Source of the DNA: Crossaster papposus | Taxonomy: Eukaryota > Echinodermata > Asteroidea > Velatida > Solasteridae | Length of the DNA stretch: 64,000 nt | Assembly: GCA_037893245.1 (NCBI GenBank) | Contig: JBAIAA010000599.1 | Coordinates: 2,046,001-2,110,000, forward strand | Direction of reading: 5' to 3' | Part shown: positions 8,618 through 61,669 of the stretch, piece after piece | Layout of the letters: each line of letters opens with the position of its first letter | Position numbering within the stretch: the first letter of the stretch is position 1 | The notes under the pieces: model-generated | What the model was told of the DNA's origin: nothing | Database searches by the model: none | What the model saw: the letters and a program-made list of their open reading frames with translations, nothing else | Made by a program: the position numbers and the translations under genes

Positions 8618-8619
8618 CT

Positions 8620-26835: not shown

Positions 26836-27092
26836 TCTGAAATGATAGATACATGTAGGCCTGTTCTTAGTGATAAAGACATGTTTTCTGACAAAGATGA
26901 ATCCAGTGATGATGTACATATGAGCCACCTTCGTGGAGCGAAGATGACTCACAAAGCAGTGGCAATTCAGTCTGTGAACATGACCTTCCTAAGATAGCAG
27001 ATGTACCCTGCAGTGACATAAAAGCTGGGACTTCTTAGATTACATCCCAACATGTTAAAATGATTTTTTTGTTGTTTTTATTTGTTTTATAG

Positions 27093-29777
27093 GATGAACC
27101 AACATGCACAAACCATGTGAAAAGTGACAAACCAGAGAACAGATCTGTGGACCAAGTACAAGTACGTGTATATGTAGAGGATAATTCTGTCCGTGTAGAG
27201 AAGGTGGAGGACACTTTAGATATAATCAGTTCATCTGAAATGGTAGATAGGCCTGTTCTTAGTGATGAAGAAATGTTTTCTGACACAGATGAATCCAGTG
27301 ATGATGTATATGAGCCACCTTCGTGGAGCGAAGATTACTCACAAAGCAGTGACACTTCAGTCAGTGAACATGACCTTCCTGGGATAGCAGATGTACCTAG
27401 TGACAAGACCGGATTTAGATCTTTAGAAAATGGGGCCAATTCAAGTGTGCAAAATGAATCCTGTGATTTTTCTGAAGCCTCAGATTTTTCTGAAGATGAC
27501 CACTTTGTATGTAGTGTACCTATTGGAAACCATGGACAACCACCAAACGAAAAACGTAAACATGCATTGCAGGGTCAGAAAGGGGCAAACAAAAAAAGGA
27601 AAAGAAGTAATAAGGAGAATCGAATGGTACAACAAAAAACAACAACTTGGATTGTGTCATCAGCAAGCACATCCAAAACTGGAGAGAGGGTGTGGGACAA
27701 ACGACACTACTGCCTTTTTTGTCACAAGCCGTATAAGAAGATAACAGAACATTGGGAAGACAAGCACTCAGAGGAAACAGAGATCGGAAAAATACTTGCC
27801 CTTGAAAAAAAATCAAAAGAAAAAAGGGATCTCATAGCTGAATTGAGAAAAGCAGGCGATTATGAGCACAACAAACGTGTCTTAGGTGGTAGTGAAAAGG
27901 GCGAGATTATTGTCCATAAACGTCCAAAGTATGGCGACAAACATAAGATCAAACAGTACATGTTTTGTTCTGATTGTAGAGGTCTGTACAAAAAGGCTGC
28001 TTTGTACCGCCACAAAAAGAGGTGTCCCAGTCATAAACCAAACCCCAAAAAGACGAGACATTTAAGGGCAGGGGCTGCTCTTATGCCTGTGTCGGAAAAT
28101 GTGTCAAGATACCTGGCAAATGTCCTGAATGGGATGGAGCACGATGAAATAACTCTCATAGCAAGGAATGATAGGTTAATTTTAAAATTGGGCGAACACT
28201 ATGCCGCAGCTGCTGGACATACAAATAACAGCAACCACTATGTGTCTCAGAAAATGAGAGAAGCTGCCCGCTTATTGAACACTGCACGCACCTTTGATGA
28301 CCATATCTGTACAGCAAGGGACTTGGTTAATCCCAGAAATTTTGATGCAGTAGTTGAGGCTACCTTGAAGTGTTCAAACTTTGATGACCACACATTTCAG
28401 TTTTCAACTCCATCCCTAGCCAGAAAACATGGACACATACTGAATAGAATGGCTGAAATAATTGATGCACAGTCTCTTAAAACTGGGATTTCTGATAACA
28501 ATGGTGCGGGGTTTAAAAGACTCATGCAGCTTGAATGGCCAACAAGGGTGTCAGGTCATGCTTTGCGGCAGGCAGCCACCTCAAAGTGGAATGAGCCAAA
28601 AAGGCTTCCACTTACAAAGGACATCATGAAGCTACATAAACATATGTGCAATGAAGAGCGTGAAATAAAGGGCCAAATAAAGCAGTGTGGGATTACTGGG
28701 GAAACTTTCTCGCAATTGGCAAAGCTAACCCTGGCACAACTGATTGTTTACAATCGACGACGACCAGGAGAGACACAGTTTTTGAAGGTTGAAACATACA
28801 GAAAAAAGAAATCACGCGGAATGGATGCAAATACTGATGTTGTGGAATCTCTGTCCCTCTCTGAACAACTTTCAATCGAAAGACTTAGCCTAGTGTACAT
28901 ACGGGGAAAGAGAAACAGAGGAGTGCCACTTCTACTGACTCCTAATGTTAGGGAATCAGTTGATCTCCTAGTCGGATCACGTGAGGCTTGTGGAATAAAC
29001 CCAGAAAATCCATATGTTTTTGCAAGAACAAGTGCAGAATCATTGGGACCTCATAGGGGGTGTGATTGTTTACGCTTACATGCGCAAAAGTGTGGAGCTG
29101 AACACCCGGAAACAATCACTTCAACAAGACTCAGGAAGCATGTTGCGACGATGAGTCAGTTGCTCAATTTGAAAAAACATGAATTGGAGCAACTAGCGAA
29201 CCACCTCGGTCACGATGTATCCGTGCACCGAGAATATTACAGACTTCCTCATGAGGCCCTGATTCTGGGTAAGGTTGGGAAACTTTTGGATGCTCTTGAA
29301 AAGGGAAAATTACATGAGTTTAAGGGAAAAACATTAGATGAAATAGTGCTTGACAATGAGGTAGTGCTGGATGGTGGGGTAGTGCTTGATGGTGGGGTAG
29401 TGCTTGATGACGAGGTACCGGTAGTGCTTGATGACAAGGTAGTGCTTGATGATGAAGCAGCCAAGAAAACTGAGTGTGAAACCAATATCGCCTCAGGAAG
29501 TTGCAAAACAGTAGCCCCAGTTCTAAAATGTAAGAACTCTAAACGCACATGTACCAAAACAGCTTGGACTACCGAGGAACTTGCAGCTGTAACAAATCAC
29601 AAAGGCTTAAGAAAATGTTTTCTTTTGGGCAAAACTCCGACACATAACATTTGTAAGGACGCAAAGGAAGAGTACAACGCTTTGGCGGGTAGAACCATTT
29701 CCCAAATAAAGTCAAAAGTGTGGAATCTCATCAAAGCTGAGAGAAAGAAGATGGACAAAGAAAATGCTGCAGTATAA
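27093..29777 (+). CDS. Zinc-finger / tyrosine-recombinase-like / Myb-like protein, large terminal exon
   Basis: Acceptor TTTTATAG| then 894 codons to TAA 29775-29777. In order: CTNH and an acidic Ser-rich region; a C2H2 finger (YCLFCHKPYKKITEHWEDKH, about residue 206); a charged linker; a second Cys/His finger (FCSDCRGLYKKAALYRHKKRC, about 295); and a tyrosine-recombinase-like catalytic region. In the catalytic region the first Arg lies in YNRRRPGE (about 558), the Arg/His pair in STRLRKHVAT (about 680), the GH in LANHLGHDVS and the Tyr in HREYYRLP (about 714). The C-terminus has an Asp/Val-rich repeat and a Myb/SANT-like domain (TAWTTEELAAV ... LAGRTISQIKSKVWN). Such proteins are common and unnamed in fish and invertebrates and resemble Crypton-type recombinases. 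Catalysis is inferred only. With the exons at 19964 and 23855 the protein would be about 1001 residues. Confidence 0.8.
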   Translation, partial: DEPTCTNHVKSDKPENRSVDQVQVRVYVEDNSVRVEKVEDTLDIISSSEMVDRPVLSDEEMFSDTDESSDDVYEPPSWSEDYSQSSDTSVSEHDLPGIADVPSDKTGFRSLENGANSSVQNESCDFSEASDFSEDDHFVCSVPIGNHGQPPNEKRKHALQGQKGANKKRKRSNKENRMVQQKTTTWIVSSASTSKTGERVWDKRHYCLFCHKPYKKITEHWEDKHSEETEIGKILALEKKSKEKRDLIAELRKAGDYEHNKRVLGGSEKGEIIVHKRPKYGDKHKIKQYMFCSDCRGLYKKAALYRHKKRCPSHKPNPKKTRHLRAGAALMPVSENVSRYLANVLNGMEHDEITLIARNDRLILKLGEHYAAAAGHTNNSNHYVSQKMREAARLLNTARTFDDHICTARDLVNPRNFDAVVEATLKCSNFDDHTFQFSTPSLARKHGHILNRMAEIIDAQSLKTGISDNNGAGFKRLMQLEWPTRVSGHALRQAATSKWNEPKRLPLTKDIMKLHKHMCNEEREIKGQIKQCGITGETFSQLAKLTLAQLIVYNRRRPGETQFLKVETYRKKKSRGMDANTDVVESLSLSEQLSIERLSLVYIRGKRNRGVPLLLTPNVRESVDLLVGSREACGINPENPYVFARTSAESLGPHRGCDCLRLHAQKCGAEHPETITSTRLRKHVATMSQLLNLKKHELEQLANHLGHDVSVHREYYRLPHEALILGKVGKLLDALEKGKLHEFKGKTLDEIVLDNEVVLDGGVVLDGGVVLDDEVPVVLDDKVVLDDEAAKKTECETNIASGSCKTVAPVLKCKNSKRTCTKTAWTTEELAAVTNHKGLRKCFLLGKTPTHNICKDAKEEYNALAGRTISQIKSKVWNLIKAERKKMDKENAAV

Positions 29778-29933
29778 AATGTTTTTTACCCTCCAAAGTT
29801 TCATTCATGTAGGAGTCATATTGTACATGACATGCACCCAAAATAATAATATAAAAGCTTAAGCAGGAGAAGGGGAGAGAGGGGTTGGTGGGTTAGTTAG
29901 TGGTGATGTTTAGCCTTATGATTCAATTAACAA
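29778..29933. other. 3' flank of recombinase gene (template of later rearrangement)
   Basis: Begins with CCTCCAAAGTTTCATTCATG soon after the stop; the same block follows the second copy. Its reverse complement is found inside the ORF of copies 2 and 3. Confidence 0.6.
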
Positions 29934-31939
29934 TTCGTCATCCACCACTATGTATCTCAGAAAATGAGAGAAGCTGCCCGCTTAGGCATAATAAAAAAAA
30001 TTACGTTGGCGTAACGGGCCCAAAAAAAATAGGGGAAGGTAGGTAGGGATTTTTTTTATGTAATTTAATTTTTTATCCCAGCAATGAAAATTATGTTTTC
30101 TAATTGTTTAAGCCAGTTAGTGATACACGATAGCGTGTCCAGGTTCACTATTTACACAATCCACACACACAACATTGAGAAACGATCAGAAATGGTTTCA
30201 AACGTATTTATAACTAGATTTATATAGATTTTAATCATTAAATTTCGTCCCTTGAAAAAACAAATTCAGGGTCGGTCGGGTTACGCCAACATAACATTTT
30301 TTTTGTATGCCTTATTGAACACTGCAGGCACCTTTGATGACCATATCTGTACAGCAAGGGACTTGGTTAATCCCAGAAATGTTGATGCAGTAGTTGAGGC
30401 TACCTTGAAGTGTTCAAACTTTGATGACCACACATTTCAGTTTTCAACTCCATCCCTAGCCAGAAAACATGGACACATACTGAATAGAATGGCTGAAATA
30501 ATTGATGCACAGTCTCTTAAAACTGGGATTTCTGATAACAATGGTGCGGGGTTTAAAAGACTCATGCAGCTTGAATGGCCAACAAGGGTGTCAGGTCATG
30601 CTTTGCGGCAGGCAGCCACCTCAAAGTGGAATGAGCCAAAAAGGCTTTCACTTACAAAGGACATCATGAAGCTACATAAACATATGTGCAATGAAGAGCG
30701 TGAAATAAAGGGCCAAATAAAGCAGTGTGGGATTACTGGGGAAACTTTCTCGCAATTGGCAAAGCTAACCCTGGCACAACTGATTGTTTACAATCGACGA
30801 CGGCCAGGAGAGACACAGTTTTTGAAGGTTGAAACATACAGAAAAAAGAAATTAGTGGAATGGATGCAAATACTGATGTTGTGGAATCACTGTCCCTCTC
30901 TGAACAACTTTCAATCGAAAGACTTAGCCTAGTGTACATACGGGGAAAGAGAAACAGAGGAGTGCCACTTCTACTGACTCCTAATGTTAGGGAATCAGTA
31001 GATCTCCTAGTCGGATCACGTGAGGCTTGTGGAATAAACCCAGAAAATCCATATGTTTTTGCAAGAACAAGTGCAGAATCATTGGGTGCATGCCATGTAC
31101 AATAAGACTCGTACATGAATGGAACTTTGGAGGGTAAAAACCATTTTATACTGGTTGATTGTTTACGCTTACATGCGCAAAAGTGTGGAGCTGAACACCC
31201 GGAAACAATCACTTCAACGAGACTCAGGAAGCACGTTGCGACGATGAGTCGGTTGCTCAATTAGAAAAAACATGAATTGGAGCAACTAGCAAAACACCTC
31301 GGTCACGATGTATCCGTGCACCGAGAATATTACAGACTTCCTCATGAGGCCCTGATTCTGGGTAAGGTTGGGAAACTTTTGGATGCTCTTGAAAAGGGAA
31401 AATTACATGAGTTTAAGGGAAAAACATTAGATGAAATAGTGCTTGACAATGAGGCAGTACTTACTGAAGATGTAGTGCTTGATGGTGGGGTAGTGCTTGA
31501 TGACAAGGTACCGGTAGTGCTTGATGACAAGGTAGTGCTTGATGATGAAGCAGCCAAGAAAACTGAGTGTGAAACCAATATCTTCCCGGCAAGTTGCAAA
31601 ACAGTAGCCCCAGTTCTAAAATGTAAGAAATCTAAACGCACATGTACCAAAACAGCTTGGACTACCGAGGAACTTGCAGCTGTGACAAATCACAAAGGCT
31701 TAAGAAAATGTTTTTTGGGGGGCAAAACTCTGACACATAACATTTGTAAAGACGCAAAGGAAGAGTACAACGCTTTGGCGGGTAGAACCATTTCCCAAAT
31801 AAAGTCAAAAGTGTGGAATCTCATCAAAGCTGAAAGAAAGAAGACGGACAAAGAAAATGCTGCAGTATCAAATGGTTTTTACCCTCCAAAGTTTCATTCA
31901 TGTAGGAGTCATATTGTACATGGCATGCACCCAAAATAA
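29934..31939 (+). pseudogene. Second copy of the recombinase gene body, MITE-interrupted
   Basis: Starts at the HYVSQKMREAARL segment, is split by the GGCATAA MITE (29985-30311) and resumes at LNTAGTFDDHIC. One base is lost near 30853 (AAATTAGTGG versus AAATCACGCGG), and there are stops near 31101 (TAA) and 31263 (TAG). The recombinase Arg, Arg/His and Tyr motifs and the Myb-like tail are still readable in pieces. Between SAESLG and DCLRLHAQ it has a ~70-bp insert that is an inverted copy of the gene's 3' flank. Confidence 0.8.
29985..30311. mobile_element. GGCATAA MITE with TTA target duplication (filled site)
   Basis: Left end GGCATAATAAAAAAAATTAC then GTTGGCGTAAC; right end GTTACGCCAACATAAC then GTATGCC. 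It is flanked by TTA (29982-29984 and 30312-30314); the paralogous empty site is CGCTTATTGAAC at 28270-28281. A 3-bp TTA duplication fits PIF/Harbinger (TWA). Confidence 0.85.
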
Positions 31940-31963
31940 TAATATAAAAGCTTAAGCAGGAGG

Positions 31964-31987
31964 GGGGGGGGGGGGGGGGGGGGGGGT
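31964..31987. repeat. Poly-G tract
   Basis: About 23 consecutive G; the corresponding position after the first copy (29872) is a mixed GAGAAGGGGAGAGAGGGG. Confidence 0.9.
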
Positions 31988-32039
31988 TGGTGGGTTAGTT
32001 AGTGGTGATGTTTAGCCTTATGATTCAATTAATAATTTG

Positions 32040-33647
32040 TCATCCACCACTATGTGTCTCAGAAAATGAGAGAAGCTGCCCGCTTAGGCATAATAAAAAA
32101 ATGTTACGTTGGGCCCCAACAAAATAGGGGAAGGGTAGGTAGGATTTTTTTTTTTTTTAATTTAATTTTTCATCCCAGCAATGAAAATTATGTTTTCTAA
32201 TTGTTTAAGCCGGTAGTGATACACGATAGCGTGTCCAGGTTCACTATTTACACAATCCACACACACAACAATGAGAAAAGGTCAGAAATGGTTTCAAACG
32301 TATTTATAACTAGATTTATATAGATTTTAATCATTAAATTTCGTCCCTTGAAAAAAACAAATCCAGGGTCTGCCGTATTTTTAGGGTCGGTCGGGTTACG
32401 CCAACATAACATTTTTTTGTATGCCTTATTGAACACTGCAGGCACCTTTGATGACCATATCTGTACAGCAAGGGGCTTGGTTAATCCCAGAAATTTTGAT
32501 GCAGTAGTTGAGGCTACCTTGAAGTGTTCAAACTTTGATGACCACACATTTCAGTTTTCAACTCCATCCCTAGCCAGAAAACATGGACACATACTGAATA
32601 GAATGGCTGAAATAATTGATGCACAGTCTCTTAAAACTGGGATTTCTGATAACAATGGTGCGGGGTTTAAAAGACTCATGCAGCTTGAATGGCCAACAAG
32701 GGTGTCAGGTCATGCTTTGCGGCAGGCAGCCACCTCAAAGTGGAATGAGCCAAAAAGGCTTTCACTTACAAAGGACATCATGAAGCTACATAAACATATG
32801 TGCAATGAAGAGCGTGAAATAAAGGGCCAAATAAAGCAGTGTGGGATTACTGGGGAAACTTTCTCGCAATTGGCAAAGCTAACCCTGGCACAACTGATTG
32901 TTTACAATCGACGACGGCCAGGAGAGACACAGTTTTTGAAGGTTGAAACATACAGAAAAAAGAAATCACGTGGAATGGATGCAAATACTGATGTTGTGGA
33001 ATCTCTGTCCCTCTCTGAACAACTTTCAATTGAAAGACTTTAGCCTAGTGTACATACGGGGAAAGAGAGACAGAGGAGTGCCACTTCTACTGACTCCTAA
33101 TGTTAGGGAATCAGTAGATCTCGTATTCGGATCACGTGAGGCTTGTGGAATAAACCCAGAAAATCCCTATGTTTTTGCAAGAACAAGTGCAGAATCATTG
33201 GGTGCATGCCATGTACAATATGACTCGTACATGAATGGAACTTTGGAGGGTAAAAACCATTTTATACTGGTTGATTGTTTACGCTTACATGCGCAAAAGT
33301 GTGGAGCTGAACACCCGGAAACAATCACTTCAACGAGACTCGGGAAGCATGTTGCGACGATAAGTCAGTTGCTCAATTTGAAAAAACATGAATTGGAGCA
33401 ACTAGCGAACCACCTCGGTCACGATGTATCCGTGCACCGAGAATATTACAGACTTCCTCATGAGGCCCTGATTCTGGGTAAGGTTGGGAAACTTTTGGAT
33501 GCTCTTGAAAAGGGAAAATTACATGAGTTTAAGGGAAAAACATTAGATGAAATAGTGCTTGACAATGAGGCAGTACTTACTGAAGATGTAGTGCTTGATG
33601 GTGGGGTAGTGCTTGATTTTCAGCAGATGCTGATATATGTTAATTAG
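32040..33647 (+). pseudogene. Third copy of the recombinase gene body, truncated
   Basis: Same organisation as the second copy, including the MITE at the identical site and the inverted 3'-flank insert. An extra T near 33042 breaks the frame, although the frame recovers downstream through the Arg/His and Tyr motifs (KHVATISQLL, LGHDVSVHREYY). It ends inside the Val-Leu-Asp repeat at about 33615, where unrelated sequence begins, so the Myb-like tail is missing. Confidence 0.8.
32087..32425. mobile_element. GGCATAA MITE, third copy
   Basis: Flanked by TTA on both sides (32084-32086, 32426-32428), at the same site as the second gene copy, so the insertion predates duplication of the filled gene. 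Confidence 0.85.
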
Positions 33648-44305: not shown

Positions 44306-45189
44306 GCGTACGTATGCGCAACCGGAACTTGCGTAAAAATAGACAAAGTACGTAGGTTTACGGTCACATAGCCTTGGTCAAGGCGTTCATGGTTACCCGT
44401 CCGTACGTACAGCACAGCGGTAATCAAAGCTCAAACAACGACCTCACGCGGCCACTATTAGTATTATGCAAATTAACTGAAGATACTTGAACGCCTTGGA
44501 TCAATGGTTAAATTGAGGTTTTTGGGGGCGGTGCTCATTATGTTAATAGATTAAGCTGACCTTTATAGTCGTTTTTTTATTGGTCGATCGTTGCGTAGAA
44601 ACTGCATAATTTGAGCTAGCGGTGAAAGATCATAGCTAGCTGGCAAGTGTTTACGAACGGCCGCCATCGTTGACATAATATTTTATCGGTTGAGTGAATT
44701 ATACGAAGGCTTTTACTAATTACACATGAAGATTTGAACTGTCTTGCTAATTGATTGGTGAGGGTCGCAGTTATTTTCGCTCGTTTTGCTGGGTATTTGT
44801 TTGAATGTTGACAATGTTATGGTCAAAACTAGTTGTGTTTACATGTAGCTGCTTAGTTTTGAGTTTTCAACCGCGGCGACTGGAGAAGGCCGCGACTCTA
44901 TTGAAGCGTGACGAACTCGGCCCTACATTATATCGCACGCATCTAATCCATAACTTGCCCTGGTAAAACGCGGAACTCTGATAATCAAATGCCTTGCCAG
45001 CTGAATTTTGCCAAGAAAATAATTAGAGGAGTCATTGAGGATATAAGACACTTGTCCCTGTTCAAATTACGATATTGCGATCATTTTGAAGGTTGGTTCT
45101 GCAGCCGTAAACATGCCCCCTCCCCACAGCGTTGGACCATGCTTGGACCATACAATGTGGCGATAACGCGCAGACCAGCATGCTTGGGT
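44306..45189. other. Non-coding interval
   Basis: No gene recognised. The region is GC-variable with scattered CpG. Confidence 0.3.
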
Positions 45190-45345
45190 TAATGCCGATT
45201 ATGCAGCGATAATGGGCTGCCTGAAAAATGACGGATTTCCCATAACCTGTCGGCAAATTCACAAAAATTTGCTCGTGTCTGAAAATTGGAGGGATAATAT
45301 TTTCGCTGCAGAATTCAAACAACATGACAGATCTTCGGTCGACAG
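45190..45345 (-). pseudogene. RecQ/SF2-type helicase N-terminal fragment
   Basis: On the minus strand FRHEQIFVNLPTGYGKSVIF is a helicase motif I (Walker A) with the aromatic-GYGKS form typical of RecQ-like proteins; a degenerate motif-Ia-like region (MLVCALSPHC) follows. The upstream Q-motif region is poorly kept, there is no helicase core, and the open frame continues into fold-back repeat sequence. This is a fragment, probably carried or broken by mobile DNA. Confidence 0.55.
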
Positions 45346-46599
45346 ACGAGGCTGAATAGCGCCATTTTGTCTTAAAGGTCATCCTGCAAATAACTGCATC
45401 AAATTTGATGACGTCGGGATTCAACCGCATTGTGATTGGACACTCCACTATGGCAAGCCAAAGCGGAATCAATTCAAAACCGTATTTATTGGCCAACACC
45501 CAAAATTTCATGCAAGACTAACTCGTTTTTTCGTGCAAGACCCAATATTTTGTGCAAGACCCCCAACAAAATACGTCCAAGACCCAATTTTTCGTGCAAG
45601 ACCCAATTTTTCGTGCAAGACCCAATTTTTCGTGCAAGACCCAATTTTTCATGCAAGACCAAAATTGTGTGCAACACCAAAATTTCCGCGCAAGATGCAC
45701 GTGACCTATAGTGTATGGTGGCCCTGAAGAGACATCGCACATTTCTGCGTAGATTTGTTTCAACGGAACGTGTTTAGCATTCGAATGTTGAATAAGAAGC
45801 TGGTAGTATGTGTTGAACATCAAACGTGGAAAGCAGCTTCGTACAGTAACGTTCATATTTTGACCTTTTCCATCTGTTACCACTCAAAATTAAATGCAGA
45901 ATACTACGCAACTATGGACAAATATTCAAATAAAAATAACCACCAGGTAGATACACTTCTATTCTTCAATGTTTTCTGTTCTTTTCAACTTTTATTTTAT
46001 TATTAACTTAACAAAATACAAAAAACAAATATATAATAATTGTTATTATTCAATCTGCACAAACCTTTCAAGAATTTTCAATTCAGTAGATACAAACTTG
46101 TGCACAGTATTAGTAGCAATAGCTATCTCCTCCCCCCCCCCCCCCCCCACGTAATTGAATGTAACTAAATACTCAAGTGTAGGCACCTGTGTTAATTAAA
46201 TCTACAGTTAAAAATAAATTTCAAATAATGCAAAAATTCAATATTGTATCAAAAACAATGAGATTGACATTACATAATTATGTTTAAACGCACATGAGTA
46301 TGGCTTTCCCACCAGTTTCTAAATTAAATCCATTTGTTTAAACTTGTTCAAAATCAAACAAAATATGCTTCATTGCCTAGGGAAAAAATTGAACAAAAAG
46401 AGGGAGAATCATCGTTCCTAATTTTAATTTGGAAAAGTCTAACATTCGTCATTAACCCTAACCATTGCAGGATCATTGAGGGACTAAACTAATGATTTTG
46501 CAGGATTGGGGTTACTTTGGTATTTATCTAAGTGAGGATTTGGGGGGATTTAGGTTATTTGTTACTTTGTACTTTCACACTGCTCATGCTCTATGTACA

Positions 46600-48636: not shown

Positions 48637-49640
48637 CTAGCTCATTGGTAAACCCACTGCAAGATTTTGCAGGCTTGAGGTTATATGGAGTTTAACAGTT
48701 TGGATTTGCAGGATTTTGCAGGATTTAGATTTAGACCTAAATCCTGCAAAATCCTGCAAATCTGGTGGTTATTTTTATTTGAATATTTGTCCATAGTTGC
48801 GTAGTATTCTGCATTTGAAATGAAGTAATTTTGAGTGGTAACGGATGGAAAAGGTCAAAATCTGAACGTTACTGTACGAAGCTGCTTTCCACGTTTGATG
48901 TTAAACACATACTACCAGCTTCTTATTCGACATTCGAATGCTGAACACGTTCCGTTGAAACAAATCTACGCAGAAATGTGCGATGTTTTTTCAGGGCCAC
49001 CATATACATTATGTCACGTGCATCTTGCGCGAAAATTTTGGTGTTGCACACAATTTTGGTGTTGCATGTAAAATTGAGTCTTGCACGAAAAATTGAGTCT
49101 TGCACGAAAAATTGGGTCTTGCACGAAAAATTGGGTCTTGCCCGAAAAATTGGGTCTTGCACGAAAAATTGGGTCTTGCACGAAAAATTGGGTCTTGCAC
49201 GAAAAATTGGGTCTTGCACGGAAAATTGGGTCTTGCACGAAAAATTGGGTCTTGCACGAAAAATTGGGTCTTGCATACAAATTTGGGTCTTGCAGGAAAA
49301 TTTGGGTCTTGCAGGAAAATGTGGGTCTTGCACTGTTTAGTTTTTTTTTATAGCGTGCAGCGGGAACTACATGTAGGCTTAGCGCATCTTAGTCAATCAT
49401 AGACCAGTTTCCGGTCCCTCCATCATTTTCTAACTTATGCAAAGCAAGCATTAGTAACGTGCACATGTTTACAAGCCGAAATAAATTACTAACCCGTGAA
49501 ATACAAAATGTACATCCCTGATGTACATCCCCATTTATTTTAAATTTTGTAATAACAAACAAATGGCCTTAGGGAGGTGGAAATGGCAAAAGCTGCAAAA
49601 GATACATTTAGTACATTTCTTTTGTAAAATATTATTGCAG

Positions 49641-49873
49641 GTAAAGGGGTGTTTGCTGAACAGCCCTTTGAACAGGGGGATTTCCTCCTCCAGTACCATG
49701 GAGATTTCATCACGGAAGACGAGGCCCACAGGAGTAAAATAAAAAAACTCCTCTTGGACAATTCACCAGTTCTGGCATTGTTTGCAAGCCGGAAGATCCA
49801 CATTAGGGAGCAGTTACTCTATGATTATGGAGGAGATGACCTCCCGTGGAGAAAGGATCCAGTTGATATGACG
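49641..49873 (+). CDS. Exon of a KMT5A-like SET protein lacking the catalytic core
   Basis: Acceptor TATTATTGCAG| and donor ATGACG|GTAAAA bound 233 nt (starts phase 1, ends phase 0). The first half is the N-terminal SET strand set (GKGVFAEQPFEQGDFLLQYH, then GDFITEDEAHR). The second half is the C-terminal end (LFASRKIHIREQLLYDYGG, then DDLPWRKD). The middle of a normal SET domain, including the Asn-His (NH) AdoMet/lysine-binding segment, is absent and replaced by about 18 residues, so a methyltransferase activity is unlikely. KMT5A-like SET genes without known targets are numerous in marine invertebrates. No upstream exon was found. The downstream exons (50226 onward) fit in phase. Confidence 0.65.
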
Positions 49874-50225
49874 GTAAAAGTGATAATTTTCATTACATGA
49901 TAACTCTATTTTACGGAGCGCAGACAAAAATCTCTACAATTACCCCCAGTCACACTTCTTTGGTAGTTATTTCCTTTGATATTCACCCTGGTCTCTTTCC
50001 TTGTGGTTTCTTCACCCTTTCCTTGTTTGTTTCCCCACCCAGTTTTTACCCCTTGGTCTGTCTTTGATCATACCCATTCTGACCTCTTTCATTCCTGGAC
50101 CTAATCCTTCTTTTGTTGGTTCTTCTACCCAACTTCTGCATCCCTCGTTTGTGTTTCTTCTCCCATCCATGTTATGCATCATACTTGTATATGTCCCCCT
50201 TTATATGTTTGTTTTATGTACACAG

Positions 50226-50318
50226 CCATATCATCATGATCCGACTGTGACCCATACAAAACTCTCAAATGTACATCAAAGTCCTTTTTCCTCTGAGGTA
50301 GTTTATAACTTGATCTAA
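50226..50318 (+). CDS. Divergent terminal exon of the SET-linked gene
   Basis: Acceptor TGTACACAG| then 30 codons and TAA: starts PYHHDPTVT and ends QSPFSSEVVYNLI. Phase 0 fits the donor at 49873 directly. It is related in the same frame to the five amplified terminal exons (PTVT and QSPxSSEVVYNLI conserved), which supports that frame as coding. It lies upstream of the array and may be the original gene end. Confidence 0.5.
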   Translation, partial: PYHHDPTVTHTKLSNVHQSPFSSEVVYNLI

Positions 50319-50635
50319 GAGTTTCTGTGTACATTGTCATTGCATTCCTATGAATCTTATGAAGACGTGATGGTCATCCTGTTTTCATGCTTTGGCTTTC
50401 TTCTAACAATTACATAGCAATTGTCTTGTTTGTGCTTTGCTTTCAGAATCCTACTGGTACTACCTCTGCAGAAACTGTAAGCGATATACAGGTAAGTCTA
50501 CCCATGTGTCGTTGTCCTCAGTAGTATAGTATTGCTTGATACATGATGCTATTCAACAAAGTTCTGTGTCCTCTGAGGAAGTTTATAACTTGATCTAAGA
50601 GTTTCTGTGTACATTGTCATTGCATTCCTATGTAT

Positions 50636-50899
50636 TGTAACGAAGATTTCTCTGGGGTCGACTACACACACAAGAAGGACTCCTGACACAAGTGTTCCTC
50701 TATTTCCTGTGGTTCTCTGCCGTTTATTGTGGACTCTCGCCTACCAAACATGGACTTCAGGCTCACACAATCACGCGGCCCCCAGAACTGGTCAGAACCA
50801 GTTCGGCGCTTGCGCAATCCAAGGCGGGTTTCCGGGGCGATCCCACCACCGTGGAATCGCTCCAGCGCCCTCTACCGCCCAACCGGCACGGGCGTTACA
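50636..50899 (-). repeat. LTR (3' LTR in element orientation)
   Basis: 264 bp, TG...CA ends, near-identical to 52513-52776. Confidence 0.85.
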
Positions 50900-51203
50900 C
50901 AGCCCCCCACGAAGACCTTGTTTGCCCCCAAACAAGACCATGGGCGCTGCTGCCGCACCCCGGCCAACCGCCCTGGAAAACGCATAACGCCAACAATTAC
51001 ACAACAATTTACATTAACAACAATTTCCATTACAACAATTTACATACAACAATTTTGAAAAGTTCAAAAGTTCCCGCCTAGTAGGTAGGAAGTGGCCTGA
51101 AGCTGCTCCCAGAATTCCGGTGGAATGTCTCTCCACGCCTGGGCCGTCTCCCCGAGGCGCGTGCGCGGTCCAACTCCGTCGCGCATGCACAGTCCGACTC
51201 CGA

Positions 51204-51697
51204 GCATGCTGCCATGCTGCTGCCATGCTGCCATGCTGCTGCCATGCTGCCATGCTGCTGCCATGCTGCCATGCTGCTGCCATGCTGCCATGCTGCTGCC
51301 ATGCTGCCATGCTGCTGCCATGCTGCCATGCTGCTGCCATGCTGCCATGCTGCTGCCATGCTGCCATGCTGCTGCCATGCTGCCATGCTGCTGCCATGCT
51401 GCCATGCTGCTGCCATGCTGCCATGCTGCTGCCATGCTGCCATGCTGCTGCCATGCTGCCATGCTGCTGCCATGCTGCCATGCTGCTGCCATGCTGCCAT
51501 GCTGCTGCCATGCTGCCATGCTGCTGCCATGCTGCCATGCTGCTGCCATGCTGCCATGCTGCTGCCATGCTGCCATGCTGCTGCCATGCTGCCATGCTGC
51601 TGCCATGCTGCCATGCTGCTGCCATGCTGCCATGCTGCTGCCATGCTGCCATGCTGCTGCCATGCTGCCATGCTGCTGCCATGCTGCCATGCTGCTA
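51204..51697. repeat. 19-bp minisatellite inside the LTR element, about 26 copies
   Basis: Perfect repetition of CATGCTGCTGCCATGCTGC. Because 19 is not a multiple of three and the unit lacks stops, all frames on both strands stay open, giving several overlapping ORFs of about 200 codons that are artefacts. Confidence 0.9.
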
Positions 51698-52512
51698 GTC
51701 CGACTCCAAGGCACATGCGTGGTCCGCCAGACGACCCCAAGCTCTGGCACCCCCAGCTCCGGCACACCCCCAGCTGTCAAGACTTGACTGGCTCCTGTGA
51801 CTGGCTCCTGTGACTGGCTCTTGTGACTGATTCCTGTGACTGGCTCTTGTGACTGATGACTGGCTTTTGTGACTGATGCCTGGCTTAGAGAGCGTGGGCG
51901 TCCCGGCGAGGCCCCGCCCCCGCTGCGCCGACGGGCACGGCTCGGGCTCGCTCCGAGTGTTGCGAGCCGTCTGCCGCGCCGCCGTCACAGCATGGGCCGG
52001 ACCCCCCCACTCGGTTTCATTCCTGCAGAAGATCCAGAGAATGTCTCGACGAGGCCCCGCCCCCCACTGCATCCACGGGCACAGCTTGAGATTGTTCCGT
52101 GTGGAACCCTCCGTCTGCTGCGCCGCCGTCTACAGCATGGGGCGGCCCCCCGACAGACCTGGTAGCGGACCCGGACAAATATGGAGAAGGGCGCCCTCTC
52201 TCCAAATCGGAGTGGACGCACTGAAGCCCCCAGCCATTGGCGCATGTCCCGAAATTCCCGCTATCCTTCTCCAACTCCTCCCCCAGGAAACATCCAGACT
52301 CCCAAGTCCCCATAACCTCCCTAGAGTTCCCCTGGCGTAATGCACGGCGTGCCTGAAAGCTTCCTGCTCTGGTCCCCGTTCCCCGGGCCCATGCCTTGGC
52401 CTGCCCTCTCGCCGTGGGGCGAGTTGGCTGCCGTGTTATCGTGGTTTTCTGAAAACATGAACACTTCACCTGGTCTTTTCCCGTCCTTCCGTATGCCGAC
52501 CGCTGCCACCAA

Positions 52513-52776
52513 TGTAACGTAGATTTCTCTGGGGTCGACTACACACACAAGAAGGACTCCTGACACAAGTGTTCCTCTATTTCCTGTGGTTCTCTGCCGT
52601 TTATTGTGGACTCTCGCCTACCAAACATGGACTTCAGGCTCACACAATCACGCGGCCCCTAGAACTGGTCAGAACCAGTTCGGCGCTTGCGCAATCCAAG
52701 GCGGGTTTCCGGGGCGATCCCACCACCGTGGAATCGCTCCAGCGCCCTCTACCGCCCAACCGGCACGGGCGTTACA
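52513..52776 (-). repeat. LTR (5' LTR in element orientation)
   Basis: 264 bp, identical in length to the other LTR and flanked outside by GTAT. Confidence 0.85.
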
Positions 52777-53912
52777 GTATCTTATGAAGATGTGATGGTC
52801 ATCTTGTTTTCATGCTTTGGCTTTCTTCTAACAATTACATAGCAATTGTCTTGTTTGTGCTTTGCTCTCAGGATCCTACCAGTACTACCTGTGCAGAAGC
52901 TGTAAACGATATACAGGTAAGTCTACCCATGTGTCTTTGTCCTCAGCAGTATAGTATTGCTTGATGTGCTGCATGATGCTAGTCAACAAAGTCCTGTGTC
53001 CTCTGAGGTAGTTTATAACTTGATCTAAGAGTCTGTGTACATTGTCATTGCATTCCTATGTATCTTATGAAGATGTGATGGTCATCCTGTTTTCATACTT
53101 TGGCTTTCTTCTAACAATAACATAGTAATTGTCTTGTTTGTGCTTTGCTCTCAGAATCCTACTGGTACTACCTCTGCAGAAGCTGTAAGCGATATACAGG
53201 TAAGTCTATACCCATGTGTCGTTGTCCTCAGTAGTATAGTATTGCTTTATACATGATGCTAGTCAACAAAGTTCTTTGTCCTCAGGTAGTTTATAACTTG
53301 ATCTAAGAGTTTCTGTGTACATTGTCATTGCATTCCTATGTATCTTATGAAGATGTGATGGTCATCTTGTTTTCATGCTTTGGCTTTCTTCTAACAATTA
53401 CAAAGCAATTGTCTTGTTTGTTCTTTGCTCTCAGAATCCTACCGGTACTATCTGTGCAGAAGCTGTAAACGATATACAGGTAAGTCTACCCATGTGTCTT
53501 TGTCCTCAGTAGTATAGTATTGCTTGATACATGATCCTAGTCAACAAAGTCCTGTGTCCTCTGAGGTAGTTTATAACTTGATCTAAGAGTTTCTGTGTAC
53601 ATTGTCATTGCATTCCTATGTATCTTATGAAGACGTGATGGTCATCTTGTTTTTATGCTTTGGCTTTCTTCTAACAATTACATAGTAATTGTCTTGTTTG
53701 TGCTTTGCTCTCAGAATCCTACCGGTACTACCTGTGCAGAAGCTGTAAACGATATACAGGTAAGTCTACCCATGTGTCTTTGTCCTCAGTAGTATAGTAT
53801 TGCTTGATATGAAAGCATTTTGGCACATGTCATACATCTCTGGTGTTCTTCTACTAATAGCCTTTATTTTGTTCACTCAATGACAATTATATCGATTGTT
53901 TTTTTTGTTTAG

Positions 53913-56900
53913 TATCCGACAGTGACCCCCATGGAACTACAAAACGCTAGTCTACAAAGTCCTGTGTCCTCTGAGGTAGTTTATAACTTGATCTAAGAGT
54001 TTCTGTGTACATTGTCATTGCATTCCTATGTATCTTATGAAGATGTGATGGTCATCTTGTTTTCATGCTTAGGCTTTCTTCCAACAATTACATAGCAATT
54101 GTCTTGTTTGTGCTTTGCTCTCAGAATCCTACTGGTACTACCTGTGCAGAAGCTGTAAACGATATACAGGTAAGTCTACCAATGTGTCTTTGTCCTCAGT
54201 AGTATAGTATTACTTGATGTGCTACATGATCCTAGTCAACAAAGTCCTGTGTCCTCTGAGGTAGTTTATAATTTGATCTAAGAGTTTCTGTGTACATTGT
54301 CATTGCATTCCTATGTATCTTATGAAGACGTGATGGTCATCTTGTTTTTATGCTTTGGCTTTCTTCCAACAATTAATAGCAATTGTCTTGTTTGTGCTTT
54401 GCTCTCAGAATCCTACTGGTACTACCTGTGCAGAAGCTGTAAACGATATACAGGTAAGTCTACCCATGTGTCTGTGTCCTCTGAGGTAGTTTATAACTTG
54501 ATCTAAGAGTTTCTGTGTACATTGTCATTGCATTCCTATGTATCTTATGAAGACGTGATGGTCATCTTGTTTTTATGCTTTGGCTTTCTTCTAACAATTA
54601 CATAGCAATTGTCTTGTTTGTGCTTTGCTCTCAGAATCCTACCGGTACTACCTGTGCAGAAGCTGTAAACGATATACAGGTAAGTCTACCCATGTGTCTT
54701 TGTCCTCAGTAGTAAAGTATTGCTTGATATGAAAGCATTTTGGCACATGTCATACAGTACATCTCTGGTGTTCTTCTACTAATAGCCTTTATTTTGTTCA
54801 CTCAATGACAATTATATACATTTGTTTTTTTTGTTTAGTATCCGACAGTGACCCCCATGGAACTACAAAACGCTAGTCTACAAAGTCCTGTGTCCTCTGA
54901 GGTAGTTTATAACTTGATCTAAGAGTTTCTGTGTACATTGTCATTGCATTCCTATGTATCTTATGAAGACGTGATGGTCATCTTGTTTTTATGCTTTAGC
55001 TTTCTTCCAACAATTACATAGCAATTGTCTTGTTTGTGCTTTGCTCTCAGAATCCTACTGGTACTACCTGTGCAGAAGCTGTAAACGATATACAGGTAAG
55101 TCTACCAATGTGTCTTTGTCCTCAGTAGTATAGTATTACTTGATGTGCTACATGATCCTAGTCAACAAAGTCCTGTGTCCTCTGAGGTAGTTTATAACTT
55201 GATCTAAGAGTTTCTGTGTACATTGTCATTGCATTCCTATGTATCTTATGAAGACGTGATGGTCATCTTGTTTTTATGCTTTGGCTTTCTTCCAACAATT
55301 ACATAGCAATTGTCTTGTTTGTGCTTTGCTCTCAGAATCCTACTGGTACTACCTGTGCAGAAGCTGTAAACGATATACAGGTAAGTCTACCCATGTGTCT
55401 TTGTCCTCAGTAGTATAGTATTACTTGATGTGCTACATGATCCTAGTCAACAAAGTCCTGTGTCCTCTGAGGTAGTTTATAACTTGATCTAAGAGTTTCT
55501 GTGTACATTGTCATTGCATTCCTATGTATCTTATGAAGACGTGATGGTCATCTTGTTTTTATGCTTTGGCTTTCTTCTAACAATTACATAACAATTGTCT
55601 TGTTTGTGCTTTGCTCTCAGAATCCTACCGGTACTACCTGTGCAGAAGCTGTAAACGATATACAGGTAAGTCTACCCATGTGTCTTTGTCCTCAGTAGTA
55701 TAGTATTGCTTGATATGAAAGCATTTTGACACATGTCATACAGTACATCTCTGGTGTTCTTCTACTAATAGCCTTTATTTTGTTCACTCAATGACAATTA
55801 TATACATTTGTTTTTTTTGTTTAGTATCCGACAGTGACCCCCATGGAACTACAAAACGCTAGTCTACAAAGTCCTGTGTCCTCTGAGGTAGTTTATAACT
55901 TGATCTAAGAGTTTCTGTGTACATTGTCATTGCATTCCTATGTATCTTATGAAGATGTGATGGTCATCTTGTTTTCATGCTTAGGCTTTCTTCCAACAAT
56001 TACATAGCAATTGTCTTGTTTGTGCTTTGCTCTCAGAATCCTACTGGTACTACCTGTGCAGAAGCTGTAAACGATATACAGGTAAGTCTACCCATGTGTC
56101 TTTGTCCTCAGTAGTATAGTATTACTTGATGTGCTACATGATCCTAGTCAACAAAGTCCTGTGTCCTCTGAGGTAGTTTATAACTTGATCTAAGAGTTTC
56201 TGTGTACATTGTCATTGCATTCCTATGTATCTTATGAAGACGTGATGGTCATCTTGTTTTTATGCTTTGGCTTTCTTCCAACAATTACATAGCAATTGTC
56301 TTGTTTGTGCTTTGCTCTCAGAATCCTACTGGTACTACCTGTGCAGAAGCTGTAAACGATATACAGGTAAGTCTACCCATGTGTCTTTGTCCTCAGTAGT
56401 ATAGTATTACTTGATGTGCTACATGATCCTAGTCAACAAAGTCCTGTGTCCTCTGAGGTAGTTTATAACTTGATCTAAGAGTTTCTGTGTACATTGTCAT
56501 TGCATTCCTATGTATCTTATGAAGACGTGATGGTCATCTTGTTTTTATGCTTTGGCTTTCTTCTAACAATTACATAGCAATTGTCTTGTTTGTGCTTTGC
56601 TCTCAGAATCCTACCGGTACTACCTGTGCAGAAGCTGTAAACGATATACAGGTAAGTCTACCCATGTGTCTTTGTCCTCAGTAGTATAGTATTGCTTGAT
56701 ATGAAAGCATTTTGGCACATGTCATACAGTACATCTCTGGTGTTCTTCTACTAATAGCCTTTATTTTGTTCACTCAATGACAATTATATACATTTGTTTT
56801 TTTTGTTTAGTATCCGACAGTGACCCCCATGGAACTACAAAACGCTAGTCTACAAAGTCCTGTGTCCTCTGAGGTAGTTTATAACTTGATCTAAGAGTTT

Positions 56901-58164
56901 CTGTGTACATTGTCATTGCATTCCTATGTATCTTATGAAGATGTGATGGTCATCTTGTTTTCATGCTTAGGCTTTCTTCCAACAATTACATAGCAATTGT
57001 CTTGTTTGTGCTTTGCTCTCAGAATCCTACTGGTACTACCTGTGCAGAAGCTGTAAACGATATACAGGTAAGTCTACCAATGTGTCTTTGTCCTCAGTAG
57101 TATAGTATTACTTGATGTGCTACATGATCCTAGTCAACAAAGTCCTGTGTCCTCTGAGGTAGTTTATAACTTGATCTAAGAGTTTCTGTGTACATTGTCA
57201 TTGCATTCCTATGTATCTTATGAAGACGTGATGGTCATCTTGTTTTTATGCTTTGGCTTTCTTCTAACAATTACATAGCAATTTTCTTGTTTGTGCTTTG
57301 CTCTCAGAATCCTACTGGTACTACCTGTGCAGAAGCTGTAAACGATATACAGGTAAGTCTACCAATGTGTCTTTGTCCTCAGTAGTATAGTATTACTTGA
57401 TGTGCTACATGATCCTAGTCAACAAAGTCCTGTGTCCTCTGAGGTAGTTTATAACTTGATCTAAGAGTTTCTGTGTACATTGTCATTGCATTCCTATGTA
57501 TCTTATGAAGACGTGATGGTCATCTTGTTTTTATGCTTTGGCTTTCTTCTAACAATTACATAGTAATTGTCTTGTTTGTGCTTTGCTCTCAGAATCCTAC
57601 CGGTACTACCTGTGCAGAAGCTGTAAACGATATACAGGTAAGTCTACCCATGTGTCTTTGTCCTCAGTAGTATAGTATTGCTTGATATGCTACATGATCC
57701 TAGTCAACAAAGTCCTGTGTCCTCTGAGGTAGTTTATAACTTGATCTAAGAGTCTGTGTACATTGTCATTGCATTCCTATGTATCTTATGAAGACGTGAT
57801 GGTCATCTTGTTTTTATGCTTTGGCTTTCTTCTAACAATTACATAGTAATTGTCTTGTTTGTGCTTTGCTCTCAGAATCCTACTGGTACTACCTGTGCAG
57901 AAGCTGTAAACGATATACAGGTAAGTCTACCCATGTGTCTTTGTCCTCAGTAGTATAGTGTTGCTTGATATGAAAGCATTTTGGCACATGTCATACAGTA
58001 CATCTCTGGTGTTCTTCTACTAATAGCCTTTATTTTGTTCACTCAATGACAATTATATACATTTGTTTTTTGTTGTTTAGTATCCGACAGTGACCCCCAT
58101 GGAACTACAAAACGCTAGTCAACAAAGTCTTGTGTCCTCCGAGGTAGTTTATAACTTGATCTAA
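53913..58164 (+). other. Five amplified terminal exons of the SET-linked gene
   Basis: Starts 53913, 54839, 55825, 56811, 58081, each after TTTTGTTTAG|. Phase 0 gives 27 codons, YPTVTPMELQNASLQ then SPVSSEVVYNLI and TAA. All five are nearly identical. Units without a full copy keep only the 3' half (CAACAAAGTCCTGTGTCCTC onward). Each full copy could terminate a transcript that splices from the SET exon with or without micro-exons. Confidence 0.6.
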
Positions 58165-58735
58165 GAGTCTGTGTACATTGTCATTGCATTCCTATGTATT
58201 TTATGAAGATGTGATGGTCATCTTGTTTTTACACTTTGGCTGTCTTCTAACAATTACATAGCAATTGTCTTGTTTGTGCTTTGCTCTCAGGATCCTACCA
58301 GTACTACCTGTGCAGAAACTGTAAACGATATACCGGTAAGTCTACCAATGTGTCTTTGTCCTCAGTAGTATAGTATTACTTGATGTGCTACATGATCCTA
58401 GTCAACAAAGTCTTGTGTCCTCTGAGGTAGTTTATAACTTGATCTAAGAGTCTGTGTACATTGTCATTGCATTCCTATGTATTTTATGAAGATGTGATGG
58501 TCATCTTGTTTTCATGCTTTGGCTGTCTTCTAACAATTACAAAGCAATTGTCTTGTTTGTGCTTTGCTCTCAGGATCCTACCAGTACTACCTGTGCAGAA
58601 ACTGTAAACGATATACCGGTAAGTCTACCCATGTGTCTTTGTCTTCAGTAGTATAGTATTGCTTGATGTGCTGCATGATGCTATTCAATAAAGTCCTGTG
58701 TCCTCTGAGGTAGATTATAACTTGATCTAAGAGTT

Positions 58736-59434
58736 GCTTGATGTGAAACTAGAGCTTCAAGGATTTTGCACATGTCGGTCGATGGCAGTTAAATGCACAA
58801 CTTGCGTGATTGCCCTGGATTGTCGGAGGTTGCAGATTTAGTTATACAAAATACAGCGCTTTTAATATTTCTATAATGAACTTGAGGTAGACAAAAAGGG
58901 CATACAAGATTAATTTCACTGGAAGAAAAACAAAAACAAAAACAAAAAAGACGGTAATACGGTACGTGAATGAAGCTTGAAATAGTGCGCGTCAGTAAAT
59001 TTAAAGAGGAAATATACACCTACCTGGTTTATTAGGATGATTCGTATTTTTAAGAAGGTAATACTACCCTTTCCCCGATTTAAATAGTAACATTAGTATA
59101 ATTGTCGATTTTGTTGTACAAAAAAGCGATCAAAAACGAGCATTTCTCAAACGCGATTTCCCCCGAATCCAAAAAACAAATTATGTATTCATTTATGCGT
59201 GTGACCCCTGTGACGACATTCTGGGACACAAGAACAACATCAACCACACACGTCCGGCGGTACGTACTACGTGTGTACACAGCCGGCCATAAGTCCCATC
59301 TCCTGTTCACGTCACGTTGTTTGGTCGCTCGCAAATACAAACTTCTACTGCTCGAATTTCTTCTTTTTTCCTCCCCCTACAATTGCTGATCTTTTGTGAT
59401 GACATTGAAGAAAGATTGATTGATATTTTGTGTA
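58736..59434. promoter_or_regulatory. Upstream region of the THAP gene
   Basis: No gene is visible. The 59200-59350 stretch is CpG-richer (CGTCCGGCGGTACGTACTAC) than its surroundings and lies just upstream of the THAP start, so it is a likely promoter. No specific element can be assigned. Confidence 0.3.
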
Positions 59435-61669
59435 ATGCCTCGGTCGTGTGCAGTTGGGGGTTGTTCGAGAAACAAGGCCAAAAACCCCGACTTAAGTTTC
59501 TTCTCCTTTCCGCGGGACAACAAAAGAAATCGTGCGTGGAGCAAGTTTGTGAACACAACGAGGTCTGACTTCAAGGCAACGAAGTGGTCCGAAATTTGCC
59601 AGGAACACTTCACTGAAGATTGCATCGACCCATCTAGCGTTCTTCAGAAACAGCACGGCAGCAAGCACTTCATCAGAGTCAAGCGGGACGCAGTGCCGAC
59701 CAAAAAAGCCCCGTCAGACGTCCGCTCATTCACCGGCTTCGGCACCGCGAGTGCGAGCACAAGCACCGGACACGACGCGAGCGCTGCAGTTGCAGGCTCT
59801 CCATCACCGAGTCGGCGGCGCAAGCTGCGTCGTCGTAGGCTTGCGTACGAGAAACGAGAGCGAACCAGGGTAAATAAAAACTAATACAATTTGTTTGTAT
59901 ATTGCCCCATATTGTATGACTGAAAACGAGCACCATTTTGTAAAGAGTACTAGCTATATAAATTAATTAGTCTATCCAAAACAGAATAAATAAAAAAACA
60001 TGTCGGCCTACCGTTTACAGAATTGTGCAATGAAAAGCGTTGCACCTATTTCGTGAAAATTATTTTATGTCTACTTTTTTGAAAGATTTTACTATCATAC
60101 CGGCATACCCCCCACCAAAACACACACCAAAAAAATATCCTAGAAAATAACCATCTATTTGGGTTCAGAACTGTTCAAACACATGGCACAACCTTACTAT
60201 TCAGGATTTCAAGACTTTTGTTTGAACAATTTTGAATGAAAATACATGTAGTATTGTTTAGGATTTGTTGGTTTTTGATGTGTTTTTGTGGGGGGTATAG
60301 TAAAATCTTTCCTTTTGACAATGAATAATGTAATCTGGATTGTATGGATAACTATTCAATAAATATGGAGGGAAAAGTTTGACATTTTATGTCAGTTAAT
60401 ACTGGCACTTTCTGGGATTTGGGCTCAGCTTTAGCCAGTTGTACAACATTTTGTGCACATATGTACTGTACGTGCATTTATATGCAAGACATTCTTAATG
60501 GCAGGTCGTTGATGAAGCTGTATCTCAGTACGAGAAGACATATGAGCATGACGAGGGTTCTGCGTCAGACTCCACAGTTACTGCACTAGGCAGCCCAAAA
60601 TATTTGCAGGTAAGAAGTTTATTTTTTTGGTTTGTGTTGATGACAATCTCTCAAAAAATAGGTTGTGAATTTTTTGGCGGCACCTGCTTTCGTTTGGTAA
60701 ATGATAATTTTCGGACGCTCCTTCAGATTGGCTAGGCCGCGTCGGCCTTTTTTCAGTAAATGCTAATCCTCCATGGATTGCCAGAGCTCGTCTCTGCATG
60801 ATACTGCCCTGCACTGAACTTGTGCAGTGACAATTTTTTGGACCTACTGAAAGAAGGTTGGCGCTACCTAGCCGATCAGAGAAAGCGTCCATGAAAATAG
60901 TGCTTAAAGTAAAACCGGCACTGGCAAAATATCCACTGCCCAAAATATACATGTATGTAGCTTAGTACAACATGTTTAGGGTAATTTGAGCAACTTTACC
61001 TTCGTTTTCTTTGACCAAATAACAAACCTGATTGTATTGTCGTGTTTGTATTAATGAAACTTGACTGTGTATCGTCTTCCGGGCAAATAAAAAGACTTTT
61101 AAGGTACTGCTTATTTTAACATGAAAAAGAATGTTTATAATTTCTATAGAGGCAATAATCTGTATACTGCACTGTTTAAGTGTGTGAAAAAGATGAATTG
61201 TTTATGATGCAAGACTGCTTTTCTAGATGCTGCATGGCCTCGACCTGATTGATTGGCTTTTCAATCAATTTGTTCCTCAAACAAGGGGTATAGGGTCCAA
61301 GCAAATGGTATTCTTACTACAATTAAATTTTTAATTTTTACTACAGACTACAGCAAGAGCATCCTCACCAAGGCAATAAACTTGTGTGAAGATGGGGTGA
61401 AAGAAGCGTGGAAGGGATACCCCGTCTTGTGTAAGAATCTCGGGCCGCTGACAGCCAAGCAGCAGCACCCAGTAAAGGAGGTGGCTGTTGCCCAGTTTGT
61501 GTCTAGGTTTGGCCAGAGTGTAAGCCAAGTCAAACGACCAGATGGCACAGAGGGACTGGTAGTAGAGGACGAGACAACGAAGAAAATAAAACGTAAGAAA
61601 AAGGAAAAGCAAGAGATGAAGAAGCTGAAAAAGAAACAAGAAGCACAAAGAAAACAACAAGATAAATAG
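59435..61669 (+). CDS. THAP-domain protein, four exons, complete
   Basis: Exons 59435-59869, 60505-60609, 61227-61287 and 61347-61669 join in frame (phases 0, 0, 1) to a 307-residue protein. The N-terminus MPRSCAVGGCSRN ... AWSKFV ... ICQEHFTEDC ... AVPT is a C2CH THAP zinc finger (C-x4-C, then C-x2-H, with the invariant Trp, Phe and Pro), a sequence-specific DNA-binding module; the start is the ATG directly ahead of it. A Ser/Ala-rich linker and an Arg-rich patch (RRRKLRRRRL) follow. The C-terminal half (LHGLDLIDWLFNQF, LTKAINLCEDGVKEAWKGYP) is unknown to me and ends in a Lys/Glu/Gln-rich helix. It has no THAP9-like transposase. Probably a nuclear DNA-binding protein. The donor AGGG|GTATAG of exon 3 is the weakest junction. 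Confidence 0.75.
60706..60905. mobile_element. Imperfect palindrome in THAP intron 2
   Basis: TTTTCGGACGCTCCTTCAGA then TTGGCTAGGCCGCG pairs with CGCTACCTAGCCGATCAG and AAAGCGTCCATGAAAA. Outside this, CAGCCCAAAATATTTGCAG at the exon end resembles the complement of GGCAAAATATCCACTGCCC. Fold-back MITE; it may have helped create the exon edge. Confidence 0.55.

Follow-up and report, generated by a model that had tools for sequence, protein, structure and literature searches.

The locus described here lies in a stretch of 64,000 nt of the sea star Crossaster papposus (contig JBAIAA010000599.1, C599:2046001-2110000, in a genome of 1.02 Gb), which is called the window below and whose positions serve as coordinates. 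On the forward strand, an exon coding for part of a SET domain (49641..49873) is followed by an array of 20 micro-exons of 45 nt, together with six copies of a stop-bearing exon, and, beyond the window end, by an intact exon with a zinc-finger-like (ZnF) and a tyrosine-recombinase-like (YR) part, referred to as the ZnF-YR exon.

With up to 8 substitutions allowed, the 45-nt segment was found in 20 copies on the forward strand and in none on the reverse strand; the search admitted substitutions only, so that a copy with an insertion or deletion would escape it, and the alignment of the 20 copies found has no gap in the exon. Micro-exon 1 (45 nt, NPTGTTSAETVSDIQ) occupies 50447..50491, and micro-exons 2 to 20, each of 45 nt and in phase 0, lie within 52872..58618, with starts at 52872, 53155, 53435, 53715, 54125, 54409, 54635, 55051, 55336, 55621, 56037, 56322, 56607, 57023, 57308, 57593, 57876, 58291, and 58574. 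An AG acceptor and the donor GTAAGTCTA are present in all 20 copies, the acceptor text reading ...TCTCAG in 19 of these and ...TTTCAG in one, and a stop in frame 0 is found in none (0/20). The original prediction, made from the letters of the window, of 20 units carrying this segment between intact splice sites is thus confirmed.

Successive micro-exons are spaced at 280-285 nt where the 5' half of the stop-bearing exon is missing between them and at 410-416 nt where it is present, with two odd spacings, 226 nt and 2425 nt, the latter holding an insertion. Furthermore, the array has a higher-order unit of 986 bp, the repeats of which are identical at 978/986 and 980/986 positions; the spacing and this unit suggest that the array was amplified by unequal exchange. 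A stricter scan of the window for micro-exons, which required an acceptor, a branch-like site, an AG|GTAAGT donor, and an exon of 15-120 nt, gave 16 candidates in the array, none in the remainder of the + strand, and none anywhere on the - strand. Twelve of these candidates are 45-nt exons and four are 96-97-nt versions of others; thus, 8 of the 20 micro-exons fail the strict scan in their 45-nt form. Position -43 is C in 7/20 copies, so that the branch-like TTCTAAC reads TTCCAAC there. Throughout the genome, all 28 matches to the array DNA and all 16 matches to the peptide of the stop-bearing exon fall at this one locus, and dispersal of the array through the genome was therefore rejected. 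A chance origin was also rejected, on the basis of the 20 copies with splice signals and the confinement of the strict scan to the array.

The stop-bearing exon occurs on the + strand in five intact copies and one divergent copy, all ending in YNLI*, in agreement with the number given originally. The 84-nt copy at 53913..53996 (YPTVTPMELQNASLQSPVSSEVVYNLI*) is repeated identically (84 nt each) at 54839..54922, 55825..55908, and 56811..56894, and with 3 substitutions at 58081..58164. The last part of this exon is present in 21 places, one behind each of the 20 micro-exons and one at 50276; 15 array units have kept this tail and lack the acceptor half. The divergent copy (50226..50318, phase 0, 30 codons and a stop) was found through its tail. 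Its acceptor and first 4 nt belong to a stretch that matches a dispersed, CT-rich repeat (49937..50229, + strand; 41 match rows including the window's own, with 40 places scored of 1454 first-look candidates in the genome search). Since CACAG|CCAT is the same in 3 of 7 aligned copies of this repeat (three others differ there and one is oppositely oriented), the acceptor at 50226 is probably not ancestral, having been supplied by the dispersed repeat, which counts against the view of this copy as a plain terminal exon.

The sole AATAAA between 49870 and the array end lies at 58687..58692 (+ strand), after the micro-exon of the last unit; in the same interval ATTAAA is absent, and the variant AGTAAA occurs once, at 54711. 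Because no AATAAA precedes 58687, the stop-bearing exons ahead of the last one are not obviously terminal exons; they could be poison exons, or internal exons of 63 nt ending in GAG|GTAGTT, also in phase 0. A junction of a micro-exon with a stop-bearing exon would read IQYPTV, and the end of the latter reads VVYNLI. The pattern resembling the immunoreceptor tyrosine-based inhibitory motif (ITIM-like pattern) is S/I/V/L-x-Y-x-x-I/V/L, and both sequences would fit it; the fit was spotted post hoc and is noted only, with no function claimed.

The SET exon (233 nt, + strand; PF00856, E 6.5e-8) has an acceptor in phase 1 and a donor, ACG|GTAAAA, in phase 0. A genome search found 26 places, 25 besides the window, which reduce to 12 distinct relatives when near-identical loci are collapsed, and a second search with one of the relatives as query gave 54 rows, including the window and a few split places. 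In the relatives, the SET domain is divided over two exons, A and B. Exon A was recovered by pattern in 6 of the 12 distinct relatives (L037, L041, L046, L047, L049, and L057), and in these six, which the comparison covers, the acceptor has the same place and phase (1) as that of the window exon, directly ahead of xx-[K/H/N/Q/Y]-G-x-[F/Y]. A GT in phase 0 lies at most 5 residues past PW in 9/12 distinct relatives, among them L050, which has a stop inside exon B; exon B reads on without an intron in L039 and L052, and was not seen in L046. The window donor, in phase 0 and 8 residues past PW, likewise lies shortly behind PW. The original claim of a SET exon is upheld by these features, and the phase 0 that it gave to the SET donor, the cassettes, and the stop-bearing exons was confirmed by reading.

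However, the window exon corresponds to exons A and B fused, with about 45 residues and one intron gone, including the IDA and ND stretches, so that the two-exon SET domain with an IDA...ND segment seen in the family is not found here. In comparison with KMT5A (5teg_A), two pieces match chain residues 36-65 and 111-146, and residues 66-110 of the chain have no counterpart in the window exon. The complete KMT5A-type SET core includes an N-H cofactor motif. Such a core, as in KMT5A methyltransferases, is not present in the window exon, and since the central segment is gone, the shortened SET part is probably not a working methyltransferase, a point on which the original picture of this exon has to be amended. 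A search for a further SET exon in the window and 50 kb of surrounding sequence found none, the next match having E 0.98. A similar exon upstream of SET is shared by L041 and L046; no counterpart of it was found in the window. Behind the SET exon of another family member (L049:2531-3091) lies a kinase-like open reading frame (ORF) containing HRDIKPANVLL, presumably a kinase motif.

The ZnF-YR exon lies on the + strand at L029:2516-4654, which is 66516-68654 in extended window coordinates, with 713 open codons and the acceptor CAG|GCC in phase 0. The acceptor, at C599:2112516, lies beyond the window end on the same strand as the SET exon. Inside the exon is a 24-nt repeat coding for SGSRSPEP. 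Set against its closest copy, which is 98% identical and lies on another contig (C165), the exon is constrained in its coding part: the ratio of nonsynonymous to synonymous substitution rates across 609 codons is 0.35 (P 0.0036). Identity in the 3' flank is 94%. The likeness to C165 begins only at the repeat stretch of this exon, and the 821 bp ahead of the exon have 39 partial matches besides themselves, at 72-85% identity, so that a comparison of alleles or haplotypes gave no copy number. A good donor, GATG|GTGAGT, is found at L029 ~4643 and a possible small acidic exon at 5038-5086, from which the gene may continue past the YR exon. A partial second ZnF-YR copy lies at L029:9105-9749.

Where family members could be read far enough, their predicted order is SET, repeats, a zinc-finger-like part, and a YR part. 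In three relatives read further, repeats or repeat-like text lead on the same strand into acidic sequence, then into zinc-finger-like and YR-like sequence; L037/L072 and L052/L070 extend into the YR part, and L035/L071 only to its start, with a frame change. By coordinates, five further places (C278, C447, C117, C381, and C520) have a same-strand YR match that follows a SET match at 2.6 to 6.2 kb. The ZnF-YR ORFs contain the stretches RRRSGE/RRRPGE, LRKHVAT, MGHD/LGHD, and REYYRL, which fit the tyrosine-recombinase pattern, and it is on these motifs that the label rests. Searches of Pfam, PHROGs, and PDB gave no recombinase match for this region, only irrelevant or sub-threshold hits, and a single-sequence fold of it was unusable (predicted local distance difference test score 33). 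The recombinase-like ORF is very abundant, in at least 97 places (of 1075 candidates, 97 were scored, and many of the scores are identical), whereas only some of its copies have a SET exon; the great abundance indicates that this ORF is, or derives from, a mobile element. The window itself holds a cluster of ZnF-YR ORFs at 24209-33647 with repeated short upstream pieces, composed of an 886-amino-acid (aa) ORF at 27117-29777 and two broken copies, with pieces 81-98% identical.

Tandem repeats lie behind SET in several relatives, and the unit differs each time: 58 residues in L035/L071, VESEP in L037, SPSASCVP in L041, AEAHSEVAP in L054, and a long repeat in L039. Seven of the 12 distinct relatives have repeats within 1.5 kb downstream of SET (six by a repeat finder and L035 by reading), although L046 has only 2.6 copies. 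L037 and L038, SET loci that lie on separate contigs and are almost identical, carry 27.7 and 31.7 copies, respectively, of a 15-nt unit. At the window locus, repeats between SET and ZnF are represented by the micro-exon array and by the 24-nt repeat in the YR exon; that the ZnF-YR exon has a repeat of its own suggests that the array has been added and does not replace a repeat. Homology of the tail to the family repeats was rejected: L039, the top match, scored 32.0 with the stop-exon peptide, a score reached by 23/500 shuffles, and L054 scored 25.0, reached by 12/500 shuffles; nothing is claimed from either.

The array was originally viewed as an expandable C-terminal tail of the SET gene. 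Because the relatives read far enough continue from SET into ZnF-YR, and the same strand has an intact phase-0 ZnF-YR exon farther downstream, the array is most likely part of the intron between SET and YR, and more than just a C-terminal tail. The explanation of its origin that we favor is that a 45-nt cassette and a stop-bearing exon were situated in the intron between the SET and ZnF-YR exons and that unequal exchange amplified this exon pair to 20 cassettes and six stop-bearing copies. With every junction in phase 0, the SET exon could be spliced to 0-20 copies of the 15-residue repeat; a transcript might then continue into the ZnF-YR exon (66516) or end in a YNLI* exon, the latter giving a truncated SET-repeat protein. 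We consider the chances even that the locus is a tandemly amplified pair of short exons in a mobile-element-related SET-ZnF-YR gene which could be spliced in variable number, and spliced use of the array is itself about equally likely and unlikely. From the sequence we infer that the locus may be transcribed, with splicing from SET to the array, the ZnF-YR exon in the same transcript, and a repeat number varying by splicing or between individuals. In the fullest version, splicing and copy number would together determine the repeat length of a SET-(n x 15 aa)-ZnF-YR gene, the stop-bearing exons would release a SET-repeat form, and the ITIM-like site at the junction would form only when a cassette is included; this version seems to us unlikely.

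Several observations weigh against a spliced SET-ZnF-YR gene. The SET exon (49873) and the ZnF-YR exon are 16.6 kb apart, a separation that weighs on assigning both to one gene, and the interval contains a young THAP transposon and other repeats. The 8 kb upstream of the C165 copy have only two short matches, of 102 and 51 bp, to the region fetched here; since C165 differs upstream, the constraint on ZnF-YR could stem from the C165 copy. An exon preceding the SET exon was sought by pattern at 33.5-49.6 kb of the window, and by tblastn across the window with 50 kb of its surroundings, and neither search found one. As for the family repeats, a repeat finder also located them upstream of SET in 4/12 groups with such a member (L045, L048, L049, and L056); the downstream excess over background is modest, and tandem repeats are weak as a family trait. 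The micro-exon and stop-exon peptides have no convincing likeness to these repeats in 21 comparisons (3 queries with 7 tails). Finally, among the 20 aligned copies, 8/45 micro-exon columns are variable (7 changes nonsynonymous and 1 synonymous), compared with 23/104 intron columns, counted with one unit with a deletion excluded downstream (Fisher P 0.66), and the splice-site columns (2/31) do not differ significantly from the intron (P 0.064). The cassette is without protein-level purifying selection, and the splice signals hint at constraint at most. Such a pattern could mean either that the cassette has no strict protein function or that it changes rapidly, and it does not decide between the two.

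The equal variability of exon and intron and the 7 nonsynonymous changes among 8 are also what would be expected if a stretch with the exon pair had recently been amplified as a neutral intronic satellite in a decayed SET-YR copy, with no product and with splice sites still present only through the youth of the copies. A higher-order repeat typical of unequal exchange, a SET domain without its middle, the failure to find an upstream SET exon by pattern in the window or by tblastn, and a window rich in minisatellites are all consistent with this possibility, which we regard as real though somewhat doubtful, because all 20 donors and acceptors are intact, the cassettes have no stops, and the phases agree at the SET exon, the cassette, the stop-bearing exon, and the ZnF-YR exon. 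The IQYPTV junction and the VVYNLI end might instead belong to the 3' end of another gene, such as one for a receptor whose tail carries phosphotyrosine, and the SET exon would then be an unrelated neighbor. For this reading, alternative 5' exons, such as a membrane-spanning one, were covered by listing of open frames and not by systematic search. However, the motif was noticed only after the fact, and the stop-exon peptide matches at this locus only, so that such an origin appears improbable. Least likely, in our view, is the form originally proposed, in which the SET gene ends in the array with several true alternative terminal exons and no downstream part. The stops and acceptors in five copies and the one AATAAA past the micro-exon of the last unit are in its favor, and the phases, the splice signals, and the identity of the SET exon stood; the terminal role was not supported, since no other AATAAA and no ATTAAA, apart from the AGTAAA variant, precede that site, several family members run on into ZnF-YR, and a ZnF-YR exon is present downstream.

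The insertion in the intron behind micro-exon 1 is an element flanked by long terminal repeats (LTRs; 50636..52776), which the original description does not mention. Its 264-bp terminal repeats are identical at 262/264 positions, the target duplication is GTAT, and the element is non-coding and contains about 26 copies of a 19-bp minisatellite. As it is found in one unit only, it is probably younger than the array and would have arrived after array formation. The THAP transposon mentioned above occupies 59001-61235 and beyond, with a THAP-domain ORF at 59420-59881; at least 7 other contigs have copies of it that are 98-100% identical, which indicates a recent insertion. Upstream of the SET exon, inverted copies with 19-bp minisatellites at 45518-45883 and 48800-49340 resemble DNA-transposon ends around 45.5-49.3 kb, and a weak helicase-like match, under the Pfam cut-off, lies beside them at 45062-45511. 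Minisatellites are abundant across the window; a 12-bp repeat at 7659-8618, with about 80 copies at 99% match, leaves several frames open. At the gathering threshold, Rfam gave no match in the window, and no tRNA was found there.

Schistosome micro-exons are mostly unlike one another, whereas here one exon has been copied 20 times. All 20 micro-exons of the array are symmetric and of 45 nt, a multiple of three. In this they are like the exons of the schistosome micro-exon genes, described as having many short exons, mostly in multiples of three and open to splice variation (PMC10526429); those genes encode secreted products, whereas the array lies beside a SET exon. KMT5A/SETD8 matches the window exon in two pieces on either side of the central SET segment, which is absent here. 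Crypton and other elements encode tyrosine recombinases, and the likeness to these lies in the motif stretches given above; the differences are the lack of a database match and the SET exon upstream in some copies here. MLL5, a SET protein that lacks intrinsic activity, provides a precedent for the retention of an inactive SET domain; it is described as divergent (PMC5094779), whereas the window domain is internally deleted. In searches of the open-licence literature of PubMed Central, subscription papers being outside the scope, we recognized no description of such an array or of a SET-YR family in which variable repeats and a recombinase-like domain are combined with SET. If the array is spliced, it would be a natural case of protein repeat length chosen by splicing among near-identical cassettes, alongside relatives in which a repeat at a similar position sits in one exon. 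The array consists of adjacent homologous exons with intact splice sites, as do tandemly duplicated exons, of which Drosophila pip, with eight clusters of terminal exons, and hydra, with nine initial exons, are examples (PMC9013439); pip, too, has repeated terminal exons. The array differs in its 20 near-identical symmetric cassettes with interspersed stop exons and in having no sign of mutually exclusive choice. Tandem exon duplication itself is thus known, and what appears to be new here is its combination inside a putative mobile-element-related SET gene.

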